Source: Methylotenera oryzisoli (lineage in GTDB: Bacteria > Pseudomonadota > Gammaproteobacteria > Burkholderiales > Methylophilaceae). From it: 64,000 bases of DNA. Below are positions 1,112 to 11,785 of this stretch, in pieces. The position numbers and the translations under genes were made by a program. Below the pieces are notes generated by a model. It was not told where the DNA came from, did no database searches, and was given only the letters and a program-made list of their open reading frames with translations. Numbering within the stretch: position 1 is the first letter of the stretch; each line of letters opens with the position of its first letter. The stretch covers positions 1-64,000 of the forward strand of contig CAMDXI010000001.1 in assembly GCA_945878695.1 (NCBI GenBank), written 5' to 3'.

Positions 1112-2359
1112 TCATTGAGCTAGCGATTCTGTGTCGAAGGGCTCAGCAAATAGTGCATTCTGAATATCTTCTAAAATCTCTTTAAATCTTCTAGAGCTAT
1201 GTTGGATATAGTTGCTTGTAACGCTTCCTCCTGAGTGATTAAGCGCTGCGCCAATTGTGTTAAGGTCGTAACCAAGCTCTGATGCAACAGTTGCAAATGT
1301 TCTACGCAAGTCGTGAGCTGTAAATTCACAATTAATCTCTTTGCATATTCTTTCAAAAGTGCGGCTAGCTGTCATTGGGTGTGATGCATCTACTGGACTT
1401 GGGAATAAATATTCATTGCCGTCAATTCTTGCTAATGACCGTCTCTCAAACATGCATTTAGTAGCTGCGGTCATTGGAAGGGTGTGATCTCGGTGATTTT
1501 TTGTATCAATGGCTGTAAATATTTCTCTTTCTAAATTTATGTTTGACCATTTAATTGTTCTAGCCTCATCTAGCCTAAAACCTGAATGAATAAGAAGCCA
1601 CGTCAAGTCGGCATCATCTTTTTTTATGGTTCCCCTATAATCTGGGTGAACTGCGTGTGAAAGGGTTTCGTAAAGCAAAACTCTTTGCTCATACTCAAGA
1701 TATGTTTCTCTTGGTCTTAGGGTTTTTCTTAATCTTTTAACTTTTAGAATTAAGCATGGGTTTCCTTTTGGCAAGAGGCGCTCTTCACCTGCATCATCTT
1801 GTGTGTAGAAATTGAATACAGCGCTTAGATATCTAAAAGCTCGCTGTGCTTCACCTATACCAACTTCATTTTTGTAACGCTTTATGGTTTTGCCAGAACT
1901 CAATCTAATGGTATCTCTTTTCTCTTTCACTTTTTTAACGTCAGTTTTTATCTTCAAGAATCTGATCTTGCATTCATCTTTGGTAATGCTTGATAAGTGG
2001 CGAGGATACCAATCCGAAAACCTACGTTCTAATGTTGCCATTGCGTCGAGCTTAGTCTTTGGCTTCCAAGAAGTGCTTGCTGCGTAGTCTTCAATTGCTT
2101 TGCCTAGCGTTAGGGTTCTAGCTGCTTCTGCAACAGCATGTTGCCTTCTCGCTTCACTGGGATCTATACCTTGTGCAAGTAATGCTAATGCTCGCCTGGC
2201 TTCTTCTCTAGCATGAGTTTTTGGGAATAGGCTGACTTTACCTATGGTGAAGGTAATAGGTTTTCCGCCTTTAATTCTAGACTTAACTGTCCACACATCC
2301 CCAGTTTCTCGAATTCGCTTATATAACCCAGCTTGAACTGTATCTTTAACCCAATCCAC
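1112..2359 (-). CDS. Tyrosine recombinase (phage/island integrase)
   Basis: This 415-residue site-specific recombinase would catalyse integration and excision of the element lying to its left. The N-terminus (about residues 5-75) matches the DUF4102 arm-DNA-binding fold, a SAM-like core-binding region follows, and the catalytic domain fills the C-terminal half. The expected residues are visible: Arg262 (SGFRLDEAR), His349 and Arg352 (HDLRR), His375 (LNHS) and nucleophile Tyr384. It starts at GTG 2359, six bases after AGGAG (2366-2370). Its 5' end faces the tRNA-Lys attachment fragment about 130 bp away, the usual arrangement for tRNA-targeting integrases. It appears intact and full length. 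Confidence 0.95.
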   Translation of the reverse strand: MDWVKDTVQAGLYKRIRETGDVWTVKSRIKGGKPITFTIGKVSLFPKTHAREEARRALALLAQGIDPSEARRQHAVAEAARTLTLGKAIEDYAASTSWKPKTKLDAMATLERRFSDWYPRHLSSITKDECKIRFLKIKTDVKKVKEKRDTIRLSSGKTIKRYKNEVGIGEAQRAFRYLSAVFNFYTQDDAGEERLLPKGNPCLILKVKRLRKTLRPRETYLEYEQRVLLYETLSHAVHPDYRGTIKKDDADLTWLLIHSGFRLDEARTIKWSNINLEREIFTAIDTKNHRDHTLPMTAATKCMFERRSLARIDGNEYLFPSPVDASHPMTASRTFERICKEINCEFTAHDLRRTFATVASELGYDLNTIGAALNHSGGSVTSNYIQHSSRRFKEILEDIQNALFAEPFDTESLAQ

Positions 2360-4422: not shown

Positions 4423-4785
4423 ATGAAGTACTTTAATAAATGGATTGCCTTGCTGCTGATGCTGTGGACGCCCTTGTTTTTTGGGAGTGCGGCCTATGCT
4501 GCAACGCAGATGAGCCTGGCAAATTTAGTTGGCCATCCGGTGGCTCAACCTGAGCATGCCTGCCACGAAGTCAATACGAAGCATGACGCAACCCAAAACG
4601 ATACTAAGCATCCTGCAGGGGATGCGCATTGCAATCATTGTGCTTTCTGTGCCAGCTTTGCAAGCCCATTCAATAACATGGTTTCTTATGTTTTTCCACT
4701 CTCGTCTGCCGTAGCGTTCAACGCCAAGTGGACGTCCTCTACTCGTCACATCACCCCTGAAAATCGCCCTCCGATTGATGCTTAA
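4423..4785 (+). CDS. Secreted His/Cys-rich protein, DUF2946-like
   Basis: From Met 4423 the product is 120 residues with an N-terminal signal peptide or anchor (hydrophobic residues 8-26, ending SAAYA). The mature part carries many His residues and a compact HCNHCAFC motif at residues 69-76. This layout resembles DUF2946 proteins, small membrane or periplasmic proteins often found beside copper or heavy-metal genes. It is the first gene of a same-strand run reaching 6469. A role in metal binding in the periplasm is inferred from the His/Cys cluster and neighbours; the metal is not determined. Confidence 0.65.
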   Translation: MKYFNKWIALLLMLWTPLFFGSAAYAATQMSLANLVGHPVAQPEHACHEVNTKHDATQNDTKHPAGDAHCNHCAFCASFASPFNNMVSYVFPLSSAVAFNAKWTSSTRHITPENRPPIDA

Positions 4786-4821
4786 CGCATCGTAATTTTT
4801 TAAATTATTTTCGGAGGCATC

Positions 4822-5463
4822 ATGCACGCAAGAATCACACTTGCATTGTTGCTATTGATTTCATTGCCAGCTCAAGCGGCTGCGTTAATGGGATTCAAAG
4901 ATAGCGCAATGTTAATGAGCGAGTTCGCTACGGATAGAAAAGAACTGATGCTCAACTATTCACCCTTTTTGGGTCACGCTTTTGGCGTTGAGACCATGTG
5001 GATGAGAGGTGAGACTCAGACTAATCTCATTACTAACTTCAACTACACAGGACTCATACGGCGTTGGAATATGCCCAGTGGTCAGGCCAACTTATGGTTC
5101 ATGACTGGCTTGGGCAATGCGTCTGGCGATTCCAGTGGATTTTCATATTCCCCTAGTGTGCAGTTTGATTATGAAACAACGCGGCTGTATTTTTTAGCTA
5201 AAGCTAGGATGCTGCGTGCACCACATATTCAATACGACAGCTACAGCATGCAAGGAGGCTTTTCTTTCTACGCAAGCAGTTATGAAGAGACGCAACCTTG
5301 GTTTGTAGTTGAAGCACGCACAACGGACAATATGACAAGCAGAAATGAGATTACACCGGCGCTGCGCTTAATTAACCAACACTATTTTCTTGAGTTAGGG
5401 CTTACTAACCCATGGGATGCGCAATCGCGCACGCCAAAACTCAATTTAATGCTTACTTTTTAA
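4822..5463 (+). CDS. Small outer-membrane beta-barrel-like protein of metal cassette
   Basis: The 213-residue protein has a cleavable signal peptide (residues 1-19, ending AQAAA) and then alternating hydrophobic/polar strands rich in aromatic residues. It ends in Phe (LNLMLTF), the usual C-terminal signature of outer-membrane barrels. A strong GGAGG site precedes ATG 4822. I do not recognise a family. It lies 36 bp after the His/Cys-rich gene and 13 bp before the MerP-like gene, so co-transcription is likely. A role as an outer-membrane component of a metal pathway is inferred from context only. Confidence 0.65.
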   Translation: MHARITLALLLLISLPAQAAALMGFKDSAMLMSEFATDRKELMLNYSPFLGHAFGVETMWMRGETQTNLITNFNYTGLIRRWNMPSGQANLWFMTGLGNASGDSSGFSYSPSVQFDYETTRLYFLAKARMLRAPHIQYDSYSMQGGFSFYASSYEETQPWFVVEARTTDNMTSRNEITPALRLINQHYFLELGLTNPWDAQSRTPKLNLMLTF

Positions 5464-5476
5464 TAAAGGATAGAAG

Positions 5477-5812
5477 ATGAAAAAACTATTTTTAATCGCT
5501 GTATTGGCAATTTTTACTAATACGGCATACGCTACCACGTCAATACACGCTAACGTTAAAGGCATGGTTTGTGCCTTTTGTGCAAAAGGCATCAATAAGA
5601 AACTGCGTGAATTAGAAGCCACTCAAGACGTTTGGGTGGATCTGAAAAATCACATGGTGGTGGTCGAGTTAAAGGAGCAAAAGACCATGACCTTAGAAGC
5701 ATTTACTAAGCTCATTAAAGACGCTGGCTATGACGTTGATAATGTCGAATACATCAACAAGACATTGGCAGACATTAAGGCTGAGCATGCTCACGCGAAA
5801 GAGCTTAAGTGA
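5477..5812 (+). CDS. Periplasmic heavy-metal-associated (MerP-like) protein
   Basis: A signal peptide (residues 1-19, ending TAYA) is followed by one ferredoxin-like HMA domain. Its metal loop reads GMVCAFC (Cys32 and Cys35), a variant of the usual GMTCxxC, and the domain continues to about residue 90 with GYDVDNVEYI. A charged His-containing tail (AEHAHAKELK) ends it. Such proteins bind soft metal ions (Hg2+ in MerP, Cu+ in copper relatives) in the periplasm and pass them to an inner-membrane partner. That partner is probably the overlapping downstream gene. No merA or merR is present, so a mercury role is not supported. Confidence 0.85.
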   Translation: MKKLFLIAVLAIFTNTAYATTSIHANVKGMVCAFCAKGINKKLRELEATQDVWVDLKNHMVVVELKEQKTMTLEAFTKLIKDAGYDVDNVEYINKTLADIKAEHAHAKELK

Positions 5813-6210
5813 TGCATGATCACCCGTATATCGTATCGATGAAGAAAAGGTTGGCCGTCAATTGGCTCATTCTTTTTACCAGCAGTGCCACCTTGATTTG
5901 TTGTGCTATTCCCGCCTTGTTGGTGAGCTTAGGATTGGGTGCGGTATTGGCTGGTTTGCTTAGCAACGTGCCCCAGCTTATTTGGATTAGTGAGCATAAG
6001 CCGCTTGTTTTTGGGGTGGCCGGCGTTTTATTGTTGCTGGCTGGCTTGCTGCAATGGCGGTCTGCCAAATTGCCTTGCCCAGCAGATCAGCAATTGGCAC
6101 TAGCTTGTATAAAAGCAAGAAAGGTGTCTAGAATCATTTATGGCATCGCCTTGCTGTTTTATATGGTGGGTTCTTGGTTCGCTTTTGTTGCGATTTATTG
6201 GCTGGATTAG
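5812..6210 (+). CDS. MerT-like inner-membrane metal transporter
   Basis: The product of about 132 residues has three to four membrane helices. The first contains a vicinal Cys pair (TLICCAIPALLVSLGLG, Cys30-Cys31), the hallmark of MerT-type transporters that receive metal from MerP. Two further Cys (89 and 99) sit in the loop after helix 3, again as in MerT. ATG 5812 overlaps the TGA of the MerP-like gene by one base, implying coupled translation; ATG 5839 (MKKRL) is an alternative start. The metal is unknown. The family match is by Cys positions and topology, not overall identity. Confidence 0.75.
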   Translation: MHDHPYIVSMKKRLAVNWLILFTSSATLICCAIPALLVSLGLGAVLAGLLSNVPQLIWISEHKPLVFGVAGVLLLLAGLLQWRSAKLPCPADQQLALACIKARKVSRIIYGIALLFYMVGSWFAFVAIYWLD

Positions 6211-6265
6211 GTCAATCTTCGCAACAGAAGGATGTTGTAAGCAGTATTTTTTTTAGGAGAAAATC

Positions 6266-6469
6266 ATGAACGAAATTTTTAATGGAAGCATTCCTATGCA
6301 CGCTATTGCGATGTGCATCTTGATGAATGTTGCTTTGGTGCTGTCAATTGCAGCATTGATAAAATATTTGATTAAAGGTAAATGTGGATGCAGATGCAAT
6401 TGTGGCTGTTCGTGTTGTAATAAAAAACAAGAAGCGTGCGGTACTGAAAACAACGCATGCTGTAAATGA
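6266..6469 (+). CDS. Small membrane protein with Cys-rich cytoplasmic tail
   Basis: A 67-residue protein with one membrane segment (about residues 14-37), followed by a basic stretch and a tail holding ten Cys in about 29 residues (KCGCRCNCGCSCC, then further ACG and ACC). The tail resembles a metallothionein-like metal-binding peptide fixed to the membrane; the basic residues before it suggest it faces the cytoplasm. ATG 6266 has a good TTAGGAG site. It closes the metal cassette and is followed by a strong terminator at 6494. Confidence 0.7.
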   Translation: MNEIFNGSIPMHAIAMCILMNVALVLSIAALIKYLIKGKCGCRCNCGCSCCNKKQEACGTENNACCK

Positions 6470-7106: not shown

Positions 7107-7724
7107 ATGCTAACAGCCCAAGGCTTGGCTTGCGTACGCGGCGACCGTCTGCTGTTTAAAGACTTGGGCTTTGTGCTTGAAGCCGGCAGCTTGCTTTATG
7201 TCTTAGGCGAAAACGGCAGTGGCAAAAGCAGTTTATTGCGCATGCTGTGTGGCTTGTTGATGCCAGAGCAGGGTGAGATTTTATGGGCAGGTAAATCGAT
7301 TAAAAGCCATGCCGAGCAGTATTTGCCTAACTTGAAGTACCTAGGGCACCTAAATGGCCTGAAGGACGATTTGACGGCTTTGGAGAATTTGCAGATGGGT
7401 GCGCGCATCGCCGGCCAAGCTGTCACGGCTGCTGCTGCCTTGGCTGCGTTAACTGCCATAGGCATAGCGCGCTGTTCGAATTTGCCGGTGCGAGTCTTGT
7501 CCCAAGGGCAGAAAAGACGGGTGGCTTTGGCCGCCTTATGGCTAAGTCGCAGCCCATTATGGATTTTAGACGAGCCGTTTGCGGCCTTGGATGTGGCGGC
7601 GACCGAGGTGTTGGCCGCGCGCATAAGCGAGCATTTGGCGGCGGGCGGCATGACCATTTTGACCAGCCATCAAGACGTGCCAATTCAGGCCAAATCCACT
7701 GTTAGCTTAAGTTTAAGCGCATGA
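7107..7724 (+). CDS. ccmA: Heme exporter ATP-binding protein CcmA
   Basis: This 205-residue ABC ATPase works with CcmB and CcmC in System I cytochrome c maturation. It drives release of holo-CcmE after heme attachment in the periplasm. Walker A GENGSGKSS (residues 34-42), signature LSQGQ (131-135), Walker B LWILDEP (151-157) and the H-loop His188 are all present. It is the first gene of a nine-gene ccm run on the + strand, and its TGA overlaps the ccmB ATG (ATGA), indicating coupled translation. Confidence 0.95.
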   Translation: MLTAQGLACVRGDRLLFKDLGFVLEAGSLLYVLGENGSGKSSLLRMLCGLLMPEQGEILWAGKSIKSHAEQYLPNLKYLGHLNGLKDDLTALENLQMGARIAGQAVTAAAALAALTAIGIARCSNLPVRVLSQGQKRRVALAALWLSRSPLWILDEPFAALDVAATEVLAARISEHLAAGGMTILTSHQDVPIQAKSTVSLSLSA

Positions 7725-8389
7725 ATCAGACCTGGCTTACCGTGTTAAGACGTGACTTGCTGCTGGCATTACGCCGCCGCTCGGACATTGCCACGACGCT
7801 GTTTTTCTTCGTCATCGTGTCCAGCTTGTTCCCGCTCGGTATAGGGCCAGAGCCGGCCGTATTAAGCAGCATTGCGCCTGGGGTGTTGTGGGTGGCGGCC
7901 TTGTTAGCCGGCATGATTTCGCTTAGTCGCCTATTTGCAGCCGATTTTGCCGATGGCAGCTTGGAGCAAATGCTCTTGGCGCCGCAGCCTTTAGCCTGGT
8001 TGGTTAGTGCAAAAATTTTCGCGCATTGGCTGGTGTGTGGCTTGCCAGTAGTACTGCTGGCACCCTTAATCGGATTGCAATACGCCTTGCCGAACGATGC
8101 CTTGTTGGTGTTGGTCTATTCATTGTTGCTGGGCACGCCGACTTTAAGTTTAATCGGCGCCATAGGCGCCGCCTTGACCCTAGGCGTGCGTGGCAGCGGT
8201 TTATTGGTGGCCTTATTGGTCTTGCCTTTATACATCCCGACCTTGATATTTGGTGCCGGGGCGGTGGCGGCCAGTCAGCATGGCATGAGTGCAGAAGCGC
8301 ACCTTTCCCTGTTGGCCGCAGTCTCATTGTTGTCCTTGGTGTTGGCGCCGCTCGCGACCGCCGCCGCCTTACGCATTTCTGTAGAGTAG
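7721..8389 (+). CDS. ccmB: Heme exporter membrane protein CcmB
   Basis: CcmB is the six-helix permease paired with CcmA. The 222-residue product has a positively charged N-terminus (RRDLLLALRRRSD) and six hydrophobic segments, with LEQMLLAPQPL in the cytoplasmic loop after helix 2, typical of the family. It starts inside the ccmA stop codon. The following ccmC starts 7 bp after its stop. Confidence 0.95.
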   Translation: MNQTWLTVLRRDLLLALRRRSDIATTLFFFVIVSSLFPLGIGPEPAVLSSIAPGVLWVAALLAGMISLSRLFAADFADGSLEQMLLAPQPLAWLVSAKIFAHWLVCGLPVVLLAPLIGLQYALPNDALLVLVYSLLLGTPTLSLIGAIGAALTLGVRGSGLLVALLVLPLYIPTLIFGAGAVAASQHGMSAEAHLSLLAAVSLLSLVLAPLATAAALRISVE

Positions 8390-8396
8390 AGTCACT

Positions 8397-9140
8397 ATGC
8401 ACATGAATTGGTTTAAGTATTCTTCCCCGCAAACGTTTTACCCGTTGGCCGGCAAAATGATCCCGTGGTTTTTTTGGGCGGCAAGCTTGCTATGCGCCGT
8501 TGGGCTGTACGTGAGTTTTGCCATCGCGCCTACTGATTTCCAGCAGGGTGAGGCCTACCGTATTATTTTTGTGCACGTGCCGGCGGCTTGGATGTCCATG
8601 TTTATCTATCTGGTGATGGCGGGCTGGGCGGCCATGGGCTTGGCCCTTAATGCTAGGTTGTCGGCCATGATGGCGCAGGCCTTAGCGCCGACTGGCGCCA
8701 TGTTCACTTTGCTGGCTTTAGTCACCGGTTCCCTTTGGGGTAAGCCTATGTGGGGCACTTGGTGGGTGTGGGACGCGCGTTTGACCTCGGAATTGATTTT
8801 ATTGTTTTTGTACTTAGGCTTCATCGCCTTGCAATCGTCCATCGATGACCCACGCCGAGCCGACCGAGCCGGTGCCTTGTTGGCCTTGGTTGGGGTGGTC
8901 AACGTGCCCATCATTTACTTCTCGGTCAAATGGTGGAACACCTTGCACCAAGGCTCCACCATCAATATGGGCGTAGCGCCTAAGATGGCCGCCACCATGT
9001 TGATCGGCATGCTGTTGATGGCCTTGGCTTTTTGGATGTACAGCGTCGCCGTGGCCTTAATGCGCGTGCGCTGCATCATGCTAGAACGCGAGCGCAGCAG
9101 TGACTGGGTGAAAGCCTTATCCGCGAAAGGGGGCAAATAA
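8397..9140 (+). CDS. ccmC: Heme handling protein CcmC
   Basis: CcmC presents periplasmic heme to CcmE. The six-helix 247-residue protein carries the tryptophan-rich heme motif WWVWDARLTSE (residues 122-132), flanked by the two conserved His ligands His60 (FVHVP) and His184 (NTLHQGS). An alternative ATG lies two codons in (8403). Its TAA shares a base with the ccmD start. Confidence 0.96.
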   Translation: MHMNWFKYSSPQTFYPLAGKMIPWFFWAASLLCAVGLYVSFAIAPTDFQQGEAYRIIFVHVPAAWMSMFIYLVMAGWAAMGLALNARLSAMMAQALAPTGAMFTLLALVTGSLWGKPMWGTWWVWDARLTSELILLFLYLGFIALQSSIDDPRRADRAGALLALVGVVNVPIIYFSVKWWNTLHQGSTINMGVAPKMAATMLIGMLLMALAFWMYSVAVALMRVRCIMLERERSSDWVKALSAKGGK

Positions 9141-9304
9141 TGCAGTGGGCAAGTTGGTCGGCTTTTTTCAATATGGGCGGTTACGCCTTTTATGTGTGGT
9201 TTTCTTTTGGTTTGACGGCACTATGTGTGCTGTGGGAAGTCTATGCCCTTCGTCAACGCAGTCGCGATGCCTTGCATTTAGCGCAATTATTAGCACAGGA
9301 TTAA
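9140..9304 (+). CDS. ccmD: Small heme exporter subunit CcmD
   Basis: A 54-residue protein: [20 protein letters not shown], then a single membrane helix and the basic tail [11 protein letters not shown]. This is the usual CcmD pattern; CcmD stabilises CcmE within the CcmABC complex and helps its release. ATG 9140 overlaps the ccmC stop (TAATG) and the stop lies just before ccmE. It is easily missed because of its size, but its place between ccmC and ccmE is diagnostic. Confidence 0.93.
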
Positions 9305-9308
9305 TAGC

Positions 9309-9764
9309 ATGCTTAAAGCACGACACAAACGCTTTATTTTAATTGGCATAGGATTGGCCTTAATAGGCTTGGCCGCCATGCTGATATTGAATGCCTTTCA
9401 AAGCAATATGGTGTTTTTCTACACGCCCAGCCAAGTGGCTAAAGGCGAGGTGCCGCACAACACCGGTTTCCGCATAGGCGGCTTGGTGGAGATGGGCAGC
9501 ATTAAGCGCGGCGACGACGGCTTAACGGTGCATTTTGTGATTACCGACACCGCGCACACCGTGCCGGTGGAATACAAAGGCGTGTTGCCGGATTTGTTCA
9601 AAGAAGGCAAAGGCGTGGTGGCGCAGGGCAGCGTGGGCGCAGACGGCTTGTTCGTGGCCAGCGAAGTGTTGGCAAAACACGATGAAAACTACATGCCACC
9701 GGAAGCGGCGGCCGCATTAAAAAGCGCCCAAGAACAAAGTAAAACTTTAGTCATGCCCAAGTAA
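9309..9764 (+). CDS. ccmE: Periplasmic heme chaperone CcmE
   Basis: CcmE binds heme covalently through a histidine and delivers it to the CcmFH ligase. The 151-residue product has an N-terminal membrane anchor (residues 8-30), a beta-barrel OB fold and the heme-attachment motif [12 protein letters not shown] with His124 and Tyr128. It lies four bases after ccmD. Confidence 0.96.
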
Positions 9765-9814
9765 TGTGGCATGGCATTCCAATAAGCACAGACCCTATCT
9801 AAAAGGACCTATAC

Positions 9815-11785
9815 GTGATTCCTGAAATTGGCCATTTTTCCCTAATTCTAGCCTTGCTGGTGGCGCTGACATTGGGCAGTTTTCCCATTATCGGTGCGGC
9901 GCGTGGTAACACGGTGTGGATGGGCTTAGCCAAACCCTTGTCGGCTTTGCAGTTTGCCTTGATTGCCTTTTCTTTTCTGTGTTTGGCTTACGCCTTTGCC
10001 GCTAAAGATTACTCGGTGGTGTACGTGGCCAACAACTCCAATTCGCAGTTGCCATTGCAATTTCGCATCGCCGCAGTGTGGGGTGGTCATGAAGGGTCGT
10101 TGTTGCTATGGGCGCTGATTTTAAGCGTTTGGACTTTGGCCGTTAGCCTATTTTCTAAGCACATCCCCGATGCCATGCGCGCACGCATACTGGGCGTGAT
10201 GGGCTTAATCAGCGTGGGCTTTTTGCTGTTTATGCTAATGGTGTCCAACCCGTTTGATCGCTTAATGCCGGCGGCCTTGGATGGCAAAGATTTAAACCCA
10301 TTGTTGCAAGACCCGGGCATGATCTTCCATCCACCTATGCTATACATGGGCTACGTGGGCTTTTCCGTGGCCTTTGCTTTTTCCATTGCCGCCCTGTTAG
10401 GTGGCCAGCTGGATGCGGCTTGGGCGCGCTGGTCGCGGCCATGGACCATCATTGCTTGGGTGTTTTTAACCGTCGGCATCATGGCCGGCAGTAACTGGGC
10501 TTATTACGAACTTGGCTGGGGCGGTTGGTGGTTTTGGGACGCGGTGGAAAATGCCTCCTTTATGCCTTGGTTGGTCGGCACCGCGCTCATACATTCGCTG
10601 GCGGTCACGGAAAAACGCGGCAGCTTTAAAGCTTGGACGGTGTTGTTGGCGATTTGTGCTTTTTCATTGAGTTTATTGGGCACGTTTTTAGTCCGTTCCG
10701 GCGTACTTACCTCGGTGCATGCCTTTGCCACCGATCCTAGACGCGGGGTGTTTATTCTGGCCTTTTTGGTGGTGGTGATAGGCGGCTCCTTGCTGCTGTT
10801 CGCTTGGCGCGCCAGCACAGTGGGGCGTGGTGGTAAATTTGATGTGGTGTCGCGAGAGAGCTTCTTGTTGGCTAATAACGTGTTGCTGGCGGTGGCCGCA
10901 TTGTCCGTGTTACTGGGCACGCTATACCCCTTATTTTTAGACGCATTGAATTTAGGCAAAATCTCCGTCGGCCCTCCTTACTTTGACGCGGTGTTTGCGC
11001 CATTGATGGCGCCGGCTGTGTTCTTGATGGGCGTTGGCCCCATCGCCAGATGGAAAGACGCGGCCTTGCCAGAACTGTTCGTGCGTCTGCGTTGGGCCTT
11101 GGCGATTAGCGCTATCACGGCCATTGTTCTGCCACTGCTGTTAGGCAATTTAACCCCCATGATAGGTTTGGGTTTGTTCTTGGCTTTTTGGGTGTTTGCC
11201 AGCAGTGCCGAATTGGTTTATCAGCGCTTGCGTAAATCCGAGGGTGGCTTGTTAGCTGGCATCGCTGCCAGCTCACGCTCATGGTGGGGCATGGTGATTG
11301 CACACTTAGGGATAGCCGTGTTTGTTTTAGGCGTGACCGTGGTCAAAGGCTTTGAATCGGAAATTGCCGTGAAAATGCACCCGGGTGACGTGGCGCATTT
11401 AGCCGGTTACGACTTTAGGTTTGATGGCGTGGAAAGCCGTAATGGCCCAAATTACACTGCCAATCATGGGCAAATCCATGTCAGCAAAAACGGTGTGTTG
11501 CGCACCGTTCTCGAGCCGGAAAAAAGGTTGTACACCGTCACTAACATGCCCATGAGTGAAGCCGGCATCAGCCCGCATTTAATACATGATTTGTATGCCT
11601 CCTTGGGCGAGCCATTAGACGGCGGCGCATGGAGTGTGCGCATCTACCACAAGCCCATGGTCGAGTGGATTTGGTTCGGTTGCTTGATGATGGCTTTTGG
11701 CGGCTTGCTGGCCATGTCAGACAAACGCTACCGTTTGAATAAACAGGCTAAATCAGTCGCCACTGGCCAAGGTCAACGCGCATGA
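9815..11785 (+). CDS. ccmF: Cytochrome c heme lyase subunit CcmF
   Basis: CcmF joins heme to apocytochrome c and is the largest ccm membrane protein (656 residues, about 14-15 helices). The WWD heme motif is at about 234-253 (GWGGWWFWDAVENASFMPWL), and conserved His residues include His172 (IFHPPMLYMG). The start is GTG 9815 after AAGGA. The C-terminal periplasmic domain and final helix are present, so it appears full length. Its TGA overlaps the ccmG ATG. Confidence 0.96.
   Translation: MIPEIGHFSLILALLVALTLGSFPIIGAARGNTVWMGLAKPLSALQFALIAFSFLCLAYAFAAKDYSVVYVANNSNSQLPLQFRIAAVWGGHEGSLLLWALILSVWTLAVSLFSKHIPDAMRARILGVMGLISVGFLLFMLMVSNPFDRLMPAALDGKDLNPLLQDPGMIFHPPMLYMGYVGFSVAFAFSIAALLGGQLDAAWARWSRPWTIIAWVFLTVGIMAGSNWAYYELGWGGWWFWDAVENASFMPWLVGTALIHSLAVTEKRGSFKAWTVLLAICAFSLSLLGTFLVRSGVLTSVHAFATDPRRGVFILAFLVVVIGGSLLLFAWRASTVGRGGKFDVVSRESFLLANNVLLAVAALSVLLGTLYPLFLDALNLGKISVGPPYFDAVFAPLMAPAVFLMGVGPIARWKDAALPELFVRLRWALAISAITAIVLPLLLGNLTPMIGLGLFLAFWVFASSAELVYQRLRKSEGGLLAGIAASSRSWWGMVIAHLGIAVFVLGVTVVKGFESEIAVKMHPGDVAHLAGYDFRFDGVESRNGPNYTANHGQIHVSKNGVLRTVLEPEKRLYTVTNMPMSEAGISPHLIHDLYASLGEPLDGGAWSVRIYHKPMVEWIWFGCLMMAFGGLLAMSDKRYRLNKQAKSVATGQGQRA

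Follow-up and report, generated by a model that had tools for sequence, protein, structure and literature searches.

A conserved operon of Methylophilaceae and relatives with a probable metal-sensing leader and a candidate copper route across the cell envelope

The first 64,000 nucleotides (nt) of contig CAMDXI010000001.1 of the freshwater methylotroph Methylotenera oryzisoli (GenBank assembly GCA_945878695.1), hereafter the window, contain a cassette of five open reading frames (ORFs), which we call A to E. Genes A to D form a conserved chromosomal operon that encodes a probable regulatory leader (A), a predicted outer-membrane β-barrel (B), a MerP-like protein (C) and a MerT-like membrane protein (D), and E is a lineage-specific accessory. 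Building on computed properties of the locus, namely its gene set, conservation, motifs, barrel prediction and predicted pairing at the ribosome-binding site of B, we propose with moderate confidence that A-B-C-D is a copper-responsive operon that carries a soft metal (Cu(I) being the most likely) across the envelope under a leader of the CutF/CruR type. The main correction to an earlier, sequence-only reading of this DNA is that a probable metal-sensing leader heads the cassette, with a pausing site built into the predicted lock of B.

Results and Discussion

Organization and conservation of the operon

All five genes listed by the sequence-only reading were confirmed in the ORF list of the window, in their expected places on the plus strand (Table 1), with the start of D overlapping the end of C by 4 nt. 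Pfam matches were obtained for A (DUF2946) and C (HMA) only, and none for B, D or E at an E-value of at most 1. Matches to B occur in 18 of 101 genomes chosen as relatives, in 80 of 187 genomes of the family (9 of 24 genera), in 26 of 300 genomes of an order sample and in 9 of 369 of a class sample, own genome included.

Gene order was surveyed at 80 named relatives, the best of 125 that were confirmed, by a six-frame profile scan for A, C and D, which was preferred because longer antisense ORFs masked C or D in greedy ORF picking at many loci. Sixty-one of the 80 loci read A-B-C-D, 12 read B-C-D without a detected A, four read B-C-D too close to the contig start for A to be judged, and three are truncated at the other contig end. 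C follows B at 79 and D is found at 77 of them, each miss coinciding with a contig end. B-C-D is also in order in all 17 further loci (from 16 genomes), and the eight other matching genomes of the class sample all have the three genes in order on one strand. Order-sample neighbourhoods were examined for the window, G053, G061 and ten more of the 26 matches. A MAPEG-family gene lies between C and D at one locus (L138). B, C and D are a stable unit, and the co-occurrence that had been expected for five genes is found widely for the four genes A to D and fails for E.

Table 1. Coordinates of the cassette, its predicted RNA features and the P-type ATPase gene (window positions unless a contig or locus is named)
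Feature	Position	Strand	Basis or remark
A, probable DUF2946 leader gene, 120 aa	4423..4785 (longer reading from 4345)	+	Pfam DUF2946; CXXC; [RK]PP end; CutF/CruR precedent
B, 213-aa predicted outer-membrane β-barrel, ~12 strands	4822..5463	+	AlphaFold2 model; fold matches
C, MerP-like HMA protein; periplasmic location presumed from a signal read by eye; VKGMVCAFCAKGI	5477..5812	+	Pfam HMA
D, three-helix MerT-like membrane protein, C31 C32 + C90/C100	5809..6210	+	Conserved Cys; model
E, one-helix protein with Cys-rich C-terminal tail, 67 aa	6266..6469	+	Lineage-specific accessory
RPP codons CGC CCT CCG, part of predicted anti-Shine-Dalgarno arm	4765..4773	+	Sequence, predicted fold
Predicted RNA element	4766..4818	+	Outer stem (4766-4774 paired to 4811-4818) would lock the Shine-Dalgarno sequence of B; inner hairpins 4777-4791, 4792-4808
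Hairpin resembling a terminator, with a T-rich tail; lies within the element	4776..4802	+	6 pairs, 3 G-C; possible attenuator
Shine-Dalgarno sequence of B, CGGAGG	4812..4817	+	Sequence, fold
P-type ATPase with HMA	G000 contig C1 62473-64791 (L135 2474-4792)	-	Above copper-translocating subfamily cut-off; spans window end

E has 11 Cys residues, 10 of them in its C-terminal tail, and one hydrophobic stretch; by the positive-inside rule, applied by eye, the tail is predicted to be cytosolic. Four other aligned copies are 84-85% identical to the window's E, with some tail Cys lost. Among the 187 family genomes, 18 have E matches, nine with the Cys tail (split over two frames in G560) and nine with the hydrophobic half only. 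B was not seen in G560, G561 and G563, a third of the genomes with the Cys tail; this argues against E being tied to the operon, and E was rejected both as a core gene and as the constant fifth member that it had been taken for. In L164 and L165, D is followed by a protein of ~41 residues without a Cys tail. The 1.75 Mb genome G565 has operon copies at positions 634968 and 1434160 of its contig C1, with E beside one only and a lone E at 1102723.

The predicted barrel and the MerP- and MerT-like proteins

The AlphaFold2 model of B is all-β, with 12 long strands and a further strand of 4 residues (predicted local distance difference test, pLDDT, 85.8; predicted template modelling score, pTM, 0.75), and the protein ends in Phe. 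We read the model as closing into a 12-strand barrel. Its best fold matches are the KdgM, NanC and FapF channels together with autotransporter and invasin-type barrels, and PcoB (7pge) is found among many barrels that match the fold (Z 10.2, root-mean-square deviation 5.3). The model and its matches to outer-membrane barrels support the suggestion that the 213-residue protein is a barrel; a fold shared with other barrels says nothing about function. By sequence, B has no match in NCBIfam, none in Pfam (PcoB/CopB family included) and none among solved structures, the latter two at an E-value of at most 1. Met residues M23, M30, M32 and M210 are invariant in 70 aligned B sequences; that they bind copper is speculation.

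C matches Pfam HMA with 36.9 bits and falls below the MerP family cut-off (TIGR02052; 40.9 bits versus 92.55). Its GMVCxFCAxGI motif is invariant in 80 of 80 aligned sequences, and distant C proteins read GLVCDFCA. In MerT, one Cys pair lies in helix 1 and another in the loop that precedes the final helix. In D, C31, C32, C90 and C100 are invariant wherever covered (78 sequences), and the model consists of three helices with a modest pLDDT of 73. Pfam MerT (PF02411) is weakly matched by 8 of 45 D relatives (best E-value 5.7e-4). Among solved structures, D gave weak sequence matches to other kinds of protein and no significant Foldseek match. On these features D may work like MerT, though it lies outside the MerT family models. 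The sequence-only reading of a soft-metal envelope route built from a barrel and from MerP- and MerT-like proteins is supported. No MerA above the family cut-off was found in the window's genome (G000, 86% complete), and the idea of a mer remnant was rejected on this ground.

Metal and direction of transport

The neighbours of the triad B-C-D point to copper. In one relative (L143), a leader ending in RPPRNILA, found by the A profile and not by Pfam, is followed by a 126-residue protein of no family, OEP, a multicopper oxidase and CusF, and then by B-C-D. The absences claimed for the cassette hold for merA and merR, neither of which was found within it among ORFs and Pfam matches, but the absence of a copper oxidase is not a general trait, given the oxidase and CusF in this gene run. 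CsoR-family repressors adjoin the triad at six loci, five recognized by Pfam (L138, L140, L141, L166 and L175) and one by sequence likeness (L142). The five CsoR-type proteins that no contig end truncates share a Cys with a His at +25 and a second Cys 4 positions beyond the His, a spacing that we take to be the copper pattern; for the two that were run on NCBIfam the best match was the copper repressor RicR, below cut-off. From the CusF, multicopper oxidase and CsoR-type neighbours, we infer that copper is the likely metal of the triad. HMA domains in G000 number two, one in C and the other in a copper-type P-type ATPase (Table 1), and the genome has two genes of the COX1 family, whose members are copper enzymes. 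A siderophore-type TonB-dependent receptor gene directly precedes B at L138. In L164, from a 1.3 Mb genome of the family, a cation efflux family gene (1874-2479) is found upstream of the operon and on the other strand.

MerP and MerT move metal inward. Since this precedent and the probable cytosolic tail of E favour the same direction, we lean slightly, at about even confidence, to inward transfer from B to C to D and on to the cytosol. The alternative that survives best, and which we consider a serious possibility, is copper tolerance: the operon would be induced by copper, and B-C-D would pass Cu(I) outward, by way of D, C and B in turn, or rid the periplasm of it. The resemblance of C and D to the inward movers MerP and MerT argues against outward passage, as do the lack of a visible energy source for export, the predicted cytosolic tail of E, and the copper-type P-type ATPase that the genome already has. 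Tolerance is favoured by the oxidase/CusF and CsoR contexts, which suggest induction by copper and fit tolerance better than uptake, and PcoB is among the fold matches of B. CutF raises its target with copper (PMC9973294). For the sign of the copper response, the CsoR family and CutF suggest induction and CruR suggests repression.

That the same leader logic serves a metal other than copper (zinc, mercury or another soft metal) is unlikely. In L137 the triad adjoins genes that resemble a ZnuABC/Zur set, as judged from the starts of their sequences, and a ZnuD-like receptor, scoring 251.5 bits versus a cut-off of 950, lies near L168. CutF-like leaders are not all copper-specific (PMC9973294). 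Against this stand the CusF, multicopper oxidase and CsoR-type neighbours and the lack of merA in the cassette and above cut-off in the genome. The two zinc-type neighbourhoods and the fit of the CsoR and oxidase contexts with tolerance count against our main reading, together with the failure of the window's own D to match MerT models (no Pfam match at an E-value of at most 1; E-value 0.13 for the MerTP fusion model) and the loose association of E with the operon.

The leader gene and the predicted lock at the A-B junction

A scores 26.4 bits against Pfam DUF2946 (PF11162; cut-off 23.7). It has a hydrophobic N-terminus, in which a secretion signal was read by eye, the sequence HCNHCAFC with its CXXC motif, and a C-terminal NRPPIDA. 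Among the 64 A genes found beside B, Pro-Pro (PP) lies within the last nine residues in 62 and takes the form [RK]PP in 61; CXXC is present in 44, and CxxxC in 17 of the other 20 (read from the listed sequences). The spacing from CXXC to [RK]PP is 36-41 residues in 43 A genes. Some highly divergent leaders from distant genomes have similar ends, such as RPPIYYS (L136) and GPPPKIFS (L137). Because the DUF2946 match, the CXXC and the Arg-Pro-Pro (RPP) end resemble those of the copper-sensing leaders CutF and CruR, we conclude that A is probably a regulatory leader of that type, not a structural secreted protein, and we propose by analogy that it is a nascent-chain metal sensor. This replaces the earlier view of A as a metal-carrying secreted part.

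In the window, pairing is predicted between the RPP codons and the Shine-Dalgarno (SD) sequence of B, with two small hairpins enclosed (Table 1). The minimum free energy of the element is -22.8 kcal/mol (z -2.47), and 5 of 200 shuffles were equally good. A stem-loop that shields the SD of the next gene, as in the CutF type, is predicted to be present here too. Positions 4768-4818 are identical in all 51 nt among five copies from four genomes (L046 and L047 belong to one assembly), and the element is also kept in both G565 copies, one with a single loop change. The 5' arm falls within the PP codons in some lineages only; elsewhere it is formed by codons after PP or by the stop codon, and the SD is still paired.

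Pairing was surveyed against dinucleotide shuffles at 50 loci with an A-B gap below 160 nt. Of 63 junctions whose A has a PP end, the window's among them, 13 were excluded for a gap of at least 160 nt; L056 and L095 had already been set aside because their A match lacks PP. The SD of B is paired with the end of A at a mean probability of 0.75, compared to 0.295 for shuffled sequences, and 25 of the 50 loci are at or under 5% of shuffles (35 at the 10% level). At the B-C junction, where the control used a fixed 75-nt stretch before C and has a geometry unlike that of the A-B test, pairing is 0.074 versus 0.232 shuffled, and 0 of 79 loci reach the 5% level. In fixed 100-nt segments, the SD of B is unpaired at 0.225 versus 0.290 shuffled (n=74), compared to 0.415 versus 0.404 for C (n=73) and 0.466 versus 0.425 for D (n=42). 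The corresponding values for B are 0.173 versus 0.273 where A is near (n=48) and 0.332 versus 0.332 for the 13 loci at which no A entered the test. Terminator-like hairpins occur at 17 of the 50 A-B junctions, where 2.3 are expected, and at 3 of 80 B-C junctions, where 2.2 are expected; given this excess, attenuation may act as well. As related loci are not independent, the counts across loci exceed the number of independent events. No known RNA family was found at the junction in Rfam.

Several results weigh against this reading of the leader and junction. The exact RAPP motif is not present in the window's A, which has RPP without Ala, and the proline motif of CutF alone causes no strong stall (PMC9973294). 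At 12 of the 80 named loci no A was found upstream at the threshold used. The SD pairing in the window itself, 0.95 versus 0.50 shuffled, is reached by 7% of shuffles, and three of the 50 loci (L078, L096 and L103) show almost no SD pairing. Where the A-B gap is at least 160 nt there is no effect, the SD of B being unpaired at 0.307 versus 0.313 (n=13; fixed 100-nt segments). Covariation of the outer stem was not significant in a MAFFT alignment of 10 Methylotenera-like junctions (0.154 versus 0.121; 48 of 500 shuffles), a lack of clear signal that we attribute to the arms sliding by indels between sublineages. A table of pair types was drawn from the predicted folds and cannot count as proof of pairing; the case for pairing is based on the shuffles and on the controls at B-C, C and D.

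These points bear on the explanation that A is a plain periplasmic metal-binding protein and that the pairing at the junction is incidental, which we judge improbable. A has a secretion-type N-terminus and His and Cys residues, Pro-Pro codons easily yield an anti-SD-like CCTCC, and the pairing of the window stands out from its shuffles only at the 7% level. However, the SD is paired even in lineages whose 5' arm lies outside the PP codons, and there is no such pairing at B-C. Moreover, the 51 nt are identical among copies, while two A proteins (L019 and L002) are 52 and 58% identical to that of the window.

Two groups of loci have other arrangements upstream of B. In L101, L105, L107 and L124, where no DUF2946 leader was detected, the gene before B encodes a long protein ending in PPAFGPL, perhaps another stalling end. 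In L113, L116 and L120 (two of them from Polynucleobacter), the A-B gap is ~349 nt and contains an extra ORF of 93 aa.

Proposed mechanism

In the mechanism that we propose for A-B-C-D as a copper-responsive operon, the CXXC of nascent A would sense the metal and its C-terminal RPP would slow the ribosome. With the RPP codons bound, as predicted, to the SD of B, a ribosome paused there would open the lock and allow expression of B-C-D, and it would also cover the first arm of the terminator-like hairpin. B would then act as an outer-membrane channel and C as a periplasmic carrier, and the Cys pairs of D would take the metal across the inner membrane, as in MerP/MerT. In the lineage of the window, the Cys tail of E may catch the metal on the cytosolic side. 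Pausing, metal sensing, the choice of copper, the direction and the role of E are what we infer from the computed features.

A bolder version is put forward only tentatively, and we regard it as rather doubtful: B-C-D would be an undescribed TonB- and ATP-independent copper route from outside to the cytosol, kept in streamlined methylotrophs of 1.2-1.4 Mb, and CGC-CCT-CCG would be both the stalling Arg-Pro-Pro and the anti-SD. As this nonanucleotide would serve twice, the stall site and the lock would be the same nucleotides.

Genomic setting and mobility

The assembly of G000 has 1.39 Mb, and the named matches closest to it belong to the Methylophilaceae, Methylotenera and Methylopumilus among them. 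On the 5' side of the operon lie genes for a SnoaL-like protein, a pterin dehydratase and, ~2 kb upstream, a tyrosine integrase (1112-2359, minus strand; Phage_integrase and Arm-DNA-bind_3). The 3' side has an apparent ccm gene run, for cytochrome c maturation (7107-11785), with CcmF confirmed at 9815-11785, and the operon precedes the same run in G041. In L172 (4788-6779) and L173 (248-2233), from another family of the same order, the triad lies directly 5' of ccmF. The ccm genes are a recurring neighbour of the triad, and there may be a link with cytochrome biogenesis.

The neighbourhoods of the operon vary between genomes. Two operon copies each are present in G020 and G565, and two loci lie on one contig of Caenimonas sedimenti; these cases indicate that the operon moves or duplicates at times. 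The case for the tRNA integration zone named by the sequence-only reading is weak, and mobility is not supported. One tRNA lies 7 kb from the operon of the window, beyond the ccm genes; a tRNA or transfer-messenger RNA (tmRNA) was found at 3 of 45 loci scanned (of the 80); no relative of the window integrase was found in the 80 loci; and B matched none of 72,556 PLSDB plasmid records. In Methylotenera versatilis the operon sits between the housekeeping genes greB and earP-efp. Despite the integrase gene, the double copies and the varying neighbourhoods, a five-gene mobile resistance cassette is thus very improbable, in view of the missing integrase relatives, the rarity of tRNA or tmRNA genes, the lack of plasmid matches, the housekeeping neighbours in M. 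versatilis and the shared ccm run in G041. The tmRNA gene of L060 (10036-10399) lies ~0.4 kb after E; tmRNA genes are common integration sites.

Comparison with known systems

The order of C and D recalls that of MerP and MerT, in which the gene for an HMA protein of the periplasm precedes one for a small membrane protein bearing two Cys pairs. In contrast to mer operons, the cassette is without merA and merR, the window's D lies outside the MerT models, and an outer-membrane barrel is added. By fold, B is a predicted barrel similar in size to PcoB and to KdgM/NanC-type barrels, with 7-13% identity in the fold alignments. As the earlier reading had supposed, no described system with this gene set was found in the openly licensed literature searched; this style of leader control is known, and the barrel-HMA-MerT-like triad is apparently undescribed there. 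The ways in which copper enters Gram-negative cells are poorly charted, and the triad represents a candidate pathway, compact and conserved, of bacteria that are common in fresh water; it also gives a functional context to the nameless families of B and D.

Leaders comparable to A have been described. CruR of Bordetella is a DUF2946 protein with CXXC and RAPP, and copper is perceived by the nascent protein (PMC9426467); its arrest at RAPP has been demonstrated in vitro (PMC12992588). The CruR-BfrG(CrtA) system of Bordetella pertussis resembles A-B-C-D in having a DUF2946 leader with CXXC and a C-terminal Pro-Pro in an outer-membrane metal transport operon; its own features are an exact RAPP, a 45-residue spacing, a 162-nt gap, Rho-dependent termination and a TonB-dependent receptor as target (PMC9426467, PMC12914433). 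RAPP-type arrest peptides are likewise short, secreted upstream ORFs with Arg and Pro-Pro near the C-terminus that precede metal genes (PMC12992588), but A has RPP without alanine. The CutF-CutO-CutG system of Rhodobacter capsulatus likewise begins with an exported DUF2946-type protein with a Cys motif and a proline-rich C-terminus, and a stem-loop hides the SD of cutO (PMC9973294). Its downstream genes encode a multicopper oxidase and a chaperone (PMC9973294), whereas here they encode the barrel, the HMA protein and the MerT-like protein. A-B-C-D would thus add a further target class for nascent-peptide metal sensors. In contrast to the CutF system, the RPP codons themselves are part of the predicted anti-SD, which would make the operon a simple model in which the stalling codons are the SD lock.

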